Positions 1 through 62,847 of a stretch of 62,847 nucleotides of DNA are shown piece by piece. The position numbers were made by a program, and so were the translations under genes. The DNA is from a virus: positions 1-62,847 of the IMG/VR virus record IMGVR_UViG_3300050821_003799; one strand, written 5' to 3'. The notes beneath the pieces are model-generated. The model was not told the origin of the DNA, did no database searches, and saw only the letters and a program-made list of their open reading frames with translations. Position 1 is the stretch's first letter. The number at the start of each line of letters is the position of its first letter.

Positions 1-179
1 CTCCGACTGCTCCGACTGCTACCGCTGCTCCGACTGCTCCGGCTGCTCCGACTGCTCCGACTGCTCCCGCTGCTCCGACTGCTCCGGCTGCTCCGACTGC
101 TCCGACTGCTCCCGCTGCTCCGACTGCTCCGGCTGCTCCGACTGCTCCGACTGCTCCGACTGCTCCGACTGCTACCGCC
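1..179 (+). repeat. Cys-Ser triplet tandem repeat (left end)
   Basis: Nearly perfect repeat of the 9-base units tgctccgac, tgctccggc, tgctcccgc and tgctaccgc. In frame it reads Cys-Ser-Asp, Cys-Ser-Gly, Cys-Ser-Arg and Cys-Tyr-Arg, so cysteine falls at every third residue. A 45-base higher-order unit (Asp, Gly, Asp, Asp, Arg as the variable residue) occurs twice in a row. Codon choice is the same in every copy, which points to recent expansion by slippage or recombination. No stop codon occurs in any of the six frames. Confidence 0.97.
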
Positions 180-529
180 TGAAAGACGCCGCGCCAGTCG
201 AGGCCGCAAGCCCGCAGACTAAGCCGCTAGTCCCCTCCGTGCCCATCATCGAGAATCTGCACGCGAAGTTGTACGCTGCCGTGTCAGCGCCGCAAGCACT
301 CAATATGAGCGATTGGCATACCTGCGAAACTACGCACTGTCGCGCTGGCTGGGTTGTTACACTCGCAGGCGAACAGGGCAAAGCGTTGGAGAAGTTTTTT
401 GATCCGCTTCTTGCGGCAATGAAGATTTACGACGCCAGTTGCCCTGGCTTCAAGATCAACCCGTGCCGATTCTTCGATTCAAACCAAGAGGCACTGGCAG
501 ATATGAAGAGACTCGCGGAGGGTGCATGA
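2..529 (+). CDS. Cys-Ser triplet-repeat protein, C-terminal part
   Basis: The reading frame enters the window open, passes about 59 repeat residues and ends with a unique domain of about 115 residues. That domain contains W-H-T-C-E-T-T-H-C-R-A-G-W, a Cys/His pair that looks metal-binding or structural, followed by a helical region ending in R-L-A-E-G-A. The N-terminal half of the same gene starts at 62583. I recognise the architecture only as an uncharacterised phage and bacterial type and know no function. The CxxC spacing through the tract would allow metal binding, disulphides or a solenoid; this is inference. The stop overlaps the next start by ATGA, so it belongs to the early rightward operon. 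Confidence 0.9.
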   Translation, partial: SDCSDCYRCSDCSGCSDCSDCSRCSDCSGCSDCSDCSRCSDCSGCSDCSDCSDCSDCYRLKDAAPVEAASPQTKPLVPSVPIIENLHAKLYAAVSAPQALNMSDWHTCETTHCRAGWVVTLAGEQGKALEKFFDPLLAAMKIYDASCPGFKINPCRFFDSNQEALADMKRLAEGA

Positions 530-62442: not shown

Positions 62443-62586
62443 ATGACTACCAGACTTGTGACGATCACACTGCCGCGCTCGTTGCATCAGCAAATGAAGA
62501 CGCTGGCGAATCGCATGGACATTAAGGTATCTGAAGCGTACCTTCGGGCGGTCGCGGCTTACGTCGCAAAGGAGAAAACAGTATGA
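62443..62586 (+). CDS. ribbon-helix-helix protein
   Basis: A 47-residue protein: R-L-V-T-I-T-L-P-R-S-L-H-Q-Q-M-K-T-L-A-N-R-M, then V-S-E-A-Y-L-R-A-V, a clear strand-helix-helix of the RHH class of small DNA-binding repressors. Its stop overlaps the next start (ATGA), so it is made with the Cys-Ser repeat protein. Confidence 0.75.
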   Translation: MTTRLVTITLPRSLHQQMKTLANRMDIKVSEAYLRAVAAYVAKEKTV

Positions 62587-62847
62587 CTTGGGTTACTGAC
62601 GCAAACGGAAACCGATGCTCGGTAGAGTATTGGGGCTCGGAAGAAGCCGCACAGAAGGCGCTCGATAGCTTACGGGGCTGCTCCGGCTGCTCCGACTGCT
62701 CCGACTGCTACCGCTGCTCCGACTGCTCCGGCTGCTCCGACTGCTCCGACTGCTCCGGCTGCTCCGACTGCTCCGACTGCTACCGCTGCTCCGACTGCTC
62801 CGGCTGCTCCGACTGCTCCGACTGCTCCGGCTGCTCCGACTGCTCCG
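62583..62847 (+). CDS. Cys-Ser triplet-repeat protein, N-terminal part
   Basis: ATG 62583 follows AAAGGAG by 8 bases. The unique N-terminus (T-W-V-T-D-A-N-G-N-R-C-S, then E-E-A-A-Q-K-A-L-D-S-L-R) is about 31 residues, then the Cys-Ser tract runs off the window. It continues conceptually at position 2. With both ends the tract is at least about 115 residues; the full length cannot be read because the ends do not join in frame. Confidence 0.93.
   Translation, partial: MTWVTDANGNRCSVEYWGSEEAAQKALDSLRGCSGCSDCSDCYRCSDCSGCSDCSDCSGCSDCSDCYRCSDCSGCSDCSDCSGCSDCS
62676..62847 (+). repeat. Cys-Ser triplet tandem repeat (right end)
   Basis: The same 9-base units as at the left end. Here a 72-base higher-order unit with one Tyr-Arg triplet per eight occurs twice. 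The nearly matching left end has SRC where this end has SGC, so the two ends are not simply the same sequence twice. Confidence 0.95.

Follow-up and report, generated by a model that had tools for sequence, protein, structure and literature searches.

The DNA analysed here, called the window below, is the whole of the IMG/VR virus record IMGVR_UViG_3300050821_003799 (62,847 nucleotides), and its two ends encode a protein in which cysteine recurs at every third residue. The question is what kind of protein such a tract makes. The gene probably encodes a modular capped rod of Cys-Ser-x units, doing the job that is done in other phage proteins by rods of pentapeptide or hexapeptide repeats.

The gene and its place in the record

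The triplet-tract gene lies on the plus strand and spans both ends of the 62,847-base record (62583-62847, then 2-529). The ORF at 62583..62847 (+) starts with ATG and encodes a 32-residue N-terminal domain, followed by CSG, CSD and CYR triplets up to the last base; the ORF at 2..529 (+) carries the triplets on with 19 cysteines, passes through a linker and closes with a C-terminal domain of 96 residues. The N-terminal cap domain (MTWVTDANGNRCSVEYWGSEEAAQKALDSLRG, 62583..62678, +), made of short strands and a helix with an AlphaFold2 pLDDT of about 87-93, matches phrog_15341 (E = 8e-12). The first part of the tract (C-S-D/G and C-Y-R, 19 Cys) occupies 62679..62847 (+) and is open at the window end, and the second part, also with 19 Cys, occupies 2..178 (+) and is open at the window start, so the 19 + 19 Cys-x-x triplets describe two parts as they stand in the record and are not a count for the joined tract. 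The linker (LKDAAPVEAASPQTKPLVPS) follows at 179..238 (+), and then the C-terminal domain at 239..529 (+, stop codon 527-529), which matches phrog_31265 (E = 6e-28). Period-3 Cys runs reach 19 triplets in each part, against 2-4 in 20 shuffles of the window and 3 in the remaining window, and the cysteine at every third residue reported in an earlier note, made by a model from the letters, is therefore real. The Cys/His character which that note gave to the C-terminal domain is likewise borne out by an invariant H-x-C-x(3)-H-C-R-A-G-W.

In full-length IMG/VR homologues the N-domain, the tract and the C-domain lie within a single ORF, and three further IMG/VR contigs (G002, G003 and G006) are divided just as the window is, one end carrying the N-domain with tract and the opposite end carrying tract with the C-domain; consequently, the two window parts are one gene. 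Judged from its sequence, the record is a circular genome cut open inside the tract. The same split in other contigs indicates that assemblers evidently open circular phage genomes within the triplet tract, and positions 1 and 62847 of the window, like the corresponding ends of G002, G003 and G006, are contig ends in the tract and not genome ends. A head-to-tail join of the two ends without overlap loses the reading frame, and the possible overlap is 5 or 14 bases and no other length.

Upstream of the tract gene, 62443..62586 (+) encodes a small Arc-like ribbon-helix-helix (RHH) protein of 47 aa, which weakly matches the Arc-like repressor profile phrog_582 (E = 0.0044). This gene ends in a TGA that shares bases with the start ATG of the tract gene (ATGA), and reading of the sequence gives a Shine-Dalgarno-like AAAGGAG (62568..62574, +) 8 bases upstream of that ATG; a consensus scan found no sigma-70-like promoter for the tract gene. 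Downstream are an endonuclease-like ORF, a DNA methyltransferase and a replication-initiator-like ORF, so that, together with the RHH gene upstream, the tract gene is placed in an early DNA-metabolism region. The gene order thus agrees with the earlier proposal of an early operon after an RHH repressor, and early expression may be expected from this position. The next gene (526-756, +), whose product begins MNLCPICKLVHEP..CKGCREP, overlaps the stop codon of the tract gene (ATGA) and appears to encode a small CxxC zinc-ribbon-like protein.

The cysteine lattice and its conservation in phages

A total of 143 non-redundant tracts was gathered, each joined to the same C-domain as in the window protein. 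The earlier note had suggested a search with the flanking domains for homologues of variable repeat number, and such a family exists, the tract length being 6-59 triplets with a median of 28 (113 complete tracts). The lattice is strict: the Cys-Cys spacing is exactly 3 residues in 3746 of the 3783 intervals of the 143 tracts, and the exceptions are nearly all in register, that is, they have an additional Cys at the third position or a single missing Cys. One tract (L091) has a register slip, and another exception is an N-masked run. Lattice cysteines are replaced at 16 of 3903 sites, compared with 114 minority synonymous TGC/TGT codons; as the cysteines themselves define a tract, the replacement count leans towards conservation.

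Within one tract nearly all units share a single Cys codon and a single Ser codon. Among the phages, 11 combinations of Cys and Ser codons occur, including TCN and AGY serines, which are two base changes apart, with GAC or GAT for Asp, and the amino-acid pattern C-S-[DGRYNS] stays constant. Therefore, the DNA has been homogenised repeatedly in eleven codon backgrounds with the residues kept, and selection acts on the protein. The earlier note had said that homologues with a tract not conserved in frame would count against its reading; in the homologues examined the frame is kept. It is accordingly very improbable that the tract is a DNA-level artefact or function, such as a slippage array, a wrong frame or an assembly repeat, with no protein feature. 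Contigs do often break inside the tract, and pure CSG or CSC runs from a pattern scan do resemble repeat genes in the wrong frame or strand, but more than 100 ORFs have conserved N- and C-domains connected by the Cys frame, synonymous codons vary among phages while the residues do not, and the tract is present in the cultured Flavobacterium phage FL-1. The pure CSG/CSC repeats (L396, L403, L410, L414, L470 and others) are a trap for pattern searches; they have neither the varied third residue nor the domains of the family and are probably other repeat genes in the wrong strand or frame, and a wrong-frame artefact was rejected for the family.

At its third position the triplet has D, G, R, Y, N or S. 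Hardly any Ala, Val or Cys occurs there despite their one-base distance from Asp or Gly codons, which argues for selection of polar residues, probably facing the solvent. The order of third residues along the tracts looks random. The first 86 tracts gave an enrichment at a lag of four triplets (Tyr-Tyr +4.4 SD, Asp-Arg about +3), as for 12 residues per turn, but the signal was gone in 58 independent tracts (YY +0.8, DR 0.0), and it is dismissed as due to chance or to lineage, many lags having been compared. No tract length is preferred modulo 3, 4 or 5, that is, whole turns are not visible, and the length differs freely even among close relatives, for example 41 and 21 triplets. This free length and the random order would suit a flexible, disordered spacer or a sticky low-complexity tract of neutral length which merely separates the N-cap from the C-domain, as would the low AlphaFold confidence in the tract described below. 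Such a spacer is nevertheless improbable, since it would not hold Cys at every third residue across eleven codon backgrounds; moreover, the one-step A and V substitutions are excluded at the third position, and sister proteins have ordered rods at the position of the tract.

Relatives with both triplets and the C-domain occur in contigs assigned to the Alphaproteobacteria (Bosea, Kaistia, Rhizorhapis, Phyllobacterium and Methylobacterium), to the Methylococcaceae, to the Bacteroidota (Spirosoma and Dyadobacter) and to others, and many unrelated phages carry the triplet protein in the early region. In phage FL-1 the depositors annotated a short C-terminal fragment only of the triplet gene (L082:5496-6313), which has a frame change inside the C-domain, either real or a sequencing error. 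The neighbours, named from sequence, include a YqaJ-like nuclease, RecT- and ERF-like proteins, a cytosine methyltransferase and a helicase; none is constant across 125 loci, and the commonest, the YqaJ-like nuclease, is near 18 of the 125. Some loci are variant. One (L373) encodes two apparent paralogues, triplet proteins of 46 and 53 triplets whose C-domains are 95% identical; at the end of contig L411 a primase-like zinc-finger ORF (NCPNPSHEDKHPSC) runs into a pure CSD tract, possibly a chimera; and two copies are broken, by a TAG within one triplet (L003 near 4840) and by a frame change at the tract end (L039 near 4880).

All 48 members scanned match both phrog_15341, a profile of the N-domain plus tract, and phrog_31265, a profile of the C-domain. 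Both profiles are labelled 'unknown function', and their library entries make no mention of the lattice, of swapping or of a role. Pfam and NCBIfam gave no match to the window, and in Pfam neither the window nor the triplet homologues match PF00805 or the hexapeptide/YdcK families. Furthermore, no profile of known anti-phage defence proteins (PADLOC) matches, and a PDB sequence search with the C-domain profile gave weak matches at most, the best being MoaC (E = 0.14), taken as chance. A literature search on phage Cys triplet repeats and the motif returned nothing relevant, and the libraries and literature searched yielded no described class that is based on a cysteine in every third position. 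The sequences are already in PHROG families, so the proteins are not unseen; what is new is the lattice, the selection at the protein level and the exchange with solenoids.

Exchange of the tract with known beta-solenoids

Relatives of the C-domain, recognised by HTCxTTHCRAGW, follow triplets in 147 cases, pentapeptide repeats in 59 and an LRR-like repeat in one; all loci were retrieved by similarity to chosen queries, and these proportions are not frequencies in nature. The pentapeptide forms, which PF00805 strongly matches, are found in other phages and prophages and also in a Bordetella plasmid element (L520). The LRR-like case (L100:2-424, from a Paracoccus bin) has the C-domain after TPITALPDGLTVGGxLYLSG and is possibly a further rod type.

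Other C-terminal domains after triplets were found by scanning for triplet-coding DNA. The IQIGCQxH..W..FDD domain follows triplets in L482, L415 and L525 and pentapeptides in L517-L519; it occurs after pentapeptide repeats in Acinetobacter, Rheinheimera and other phages. The CGCFxG domain follows triplets in L433, L442 and L523 and hexapeptide/YdcK solenoids in L515 and L516 (Chryseobacterium phage MA9V-1 and Bacteroides phage BF766P1), both of which match the hexapeptide/YdcK solenoid in Pfam. The prior expectation that this class of C-domains follows hexapeptide solenoids thus held for CGCFxG, and IQIGCQxH follows pentapeptides instead. The MA9V-1 gene (L515:856-1770) is annotated as a UDP-3-O-(3-hydroxymyristoyl) glucosamine N-acyltransferase; its product resembles a hexapeptide/YdcK solenoid with a CGCFxG domain, which makes the annotated enzyme name a probable error. 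In addition, a further triplet form ends in a short helix-like LTKEEYE segment (L412, L446 and L471), and that of L492 ends in CETTHCLSGW, a relative of the main C-domain.

The HTCxTTHCRAGW, IQIGCQxH and CGCFxG domains have no detectable mutual similarity. Three dissimilar C-domains are therefore found sometimes on Cys triplets and sometimes on an established beta-solenoid, which is most simply explained if the tract is a third kind of rod. As far as sequence comparison goes, the triplet tract is a swappable module, and such swaps indicate equivalent position and not equivalent structure. The tree of the HTCxTTHCRAGW domain has only 2-3 changes of tract type, which are weakly supported because the domain is short.

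Pentapeptide repeat proteins (PF00805, the fold of the MfpA/Qnr class) share with the triplet proteins the C-terminal domains, the place among early-region phage genes, many near-identical short units in variable number and a surface rich in D/N/R/S/G/Y. However, the pentapeptide unit has five residues and a central Leu, whereas the triplet unit has three and an invariant Cys. The triplet tract has the same partner domains and the same position, by which a pentapeptide-type rod is recognised. The hexapeptide/YdcK beta-solenoid proteins of phages (PF00132, PF18836) have the CGCFxG domain in common with the Cys triplets but are built from six-residue GNAxVx units and lack the Cys lattice. MfpA and similar pentapeptide rods are DNA mimics that act on gyrase (PMC10886550). 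The median net charge of the triplet tracts is -0.11 per triplet, that is, they are slightly acidic on average, and DNA mimicry is therefore not specifically supported.

The proposed rod and its thiols

AlphaFold2 was run twice, with 48 and 31 homologues. The caps are predicted with high confidence to be folded, the N-cap as two short strands plus a helix and the C-domain as helical; the N-terminal domain, which the earlier note had described as helical, thus keeps its helix in the model but does not consist of it alone. Most of the tract has a pLDDT under 50 in both runs. In the model of L004 every third residue forms a beta-bridge through roughly the first seven triplets, with the pLDDT falling from 87 to 73; the beta-bridge pattern of the first run was lost in the second. 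Foldseek gave no fold match in the PDB, and in BFVD low E-values solely for C-domain relatives, from FL-1 and Campylobacter phage CP20. BFVD also has an unnamed viral protein, A7RAH6, that is matched weakly in fold (E = 0.6), is 68% identical over 72 columns and is possibly another Cys tract.

Three options had been offered for the tract, namely a chain of metal ions, disulphide cross-links and a solenoid with one Cys stripe. Domain swaps with two classes of known beta-solenoids favour a solenoid or rod. Moreover, the tract protein has no obvious signal peptide and so is likely to be cytosolic and reduced, which makes free or metal-bound thiols likelier than disulphides and stable disulphides unlikely. 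The earlier interpretation is thus partly supported, and it is extended here. In the capped rod a small N-terminal cap would start a regular rod of three-residue Cys-Ser-x units, the Cys of each unit pointing into the core or along one stripe and D, G, R, Y, N or S facing the solvent. The folded C-terminal domain at the rod end would be the active or binding part, for which the rod would be a rigid, length-adjustable scaffold or surface in the early DNA recombination/replication region of the phage, and the tract would fill the role of the pentapeptide or hexapeptide beta-solenoids which bear these C-terminal domains in sister proteins. We infer this role in infection, and likewise that the rod is ordered, with its cysteines inward or on one stripe.

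Three-residue protein repeats are rare, collagen being the classic case, and solenoid-like proteins are not known to have a repeat unit shorter than three residues. The beetle antifreeze protein is the closest structural precedent, and not a homologue. In its solved structure, a regular beta-helix, positions 2, 5, 8 and 11 of the 12-residue coil point inward, that is, every third residue, and Cys fill the core (PMC8038014). TmAFP and DhbAFP resemble the proposed triplet rod in the period-3 inward pattern, the Cys core and small coils without a large hydrophobic core, but these insect proteins are secreted and disulphide-bonded and have a 12-residue T-C-T unit with two Cys per coil; the coil TCTxSxNCxxAx is absent from the window tract.

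The main rival to a plain rod, or perhaps an added property of it, is metal binding by the thiols. Reduced cysteines would bind a chain of Zn, Cu(I) or Fe-S; the protein would store metal like a metallothionein or form a rod nucleated by metal, and its fold would depend on metal. Near-absolute conservation of the lattice Cys suggests a thiol-specific role, the CxxC spacing suits metal sites, AlphaFold did not resolve the tract without metals, and the C-domain carries its own invariant H/C set. The metal reading is nevertheless doubtful, since sister proteins fill the same positions with known solenoids that lack such a Cys lattice, and no recurring metal-related gene was seen among the neighbours. 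Metallothioneins and multi-CxxC zinc or Fe-S proteins do share with the triplets a very high Cys content and the CxxC spacing; however, metallothioneins are not bound to one exact Cys spacing, whereas the triplets keep one over 6-59 units, have folded caps and are swapped with solenoids, and their sequence would allow metal binding. A combination of both readings is tentatively proposed: a triplet rod with a continuous thiol core, interchangeable with pentapeptide and hexapeptide solenoids as a scaffold, might in the reducing cytoplasm hold stacked thiols or a single row of metal bound by thiolates.

Several phage C-terminal domains emerge from the comparison as recurrent partners of repeat rods, and the natural exchange with two beta-solenoid classes at the same position makes an ordered rod the direct expectation. 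If the tract is an ordered rod with a thiol core, it would be a new class of protein repeat and possibly a genetically encoded metal or thiol wire.
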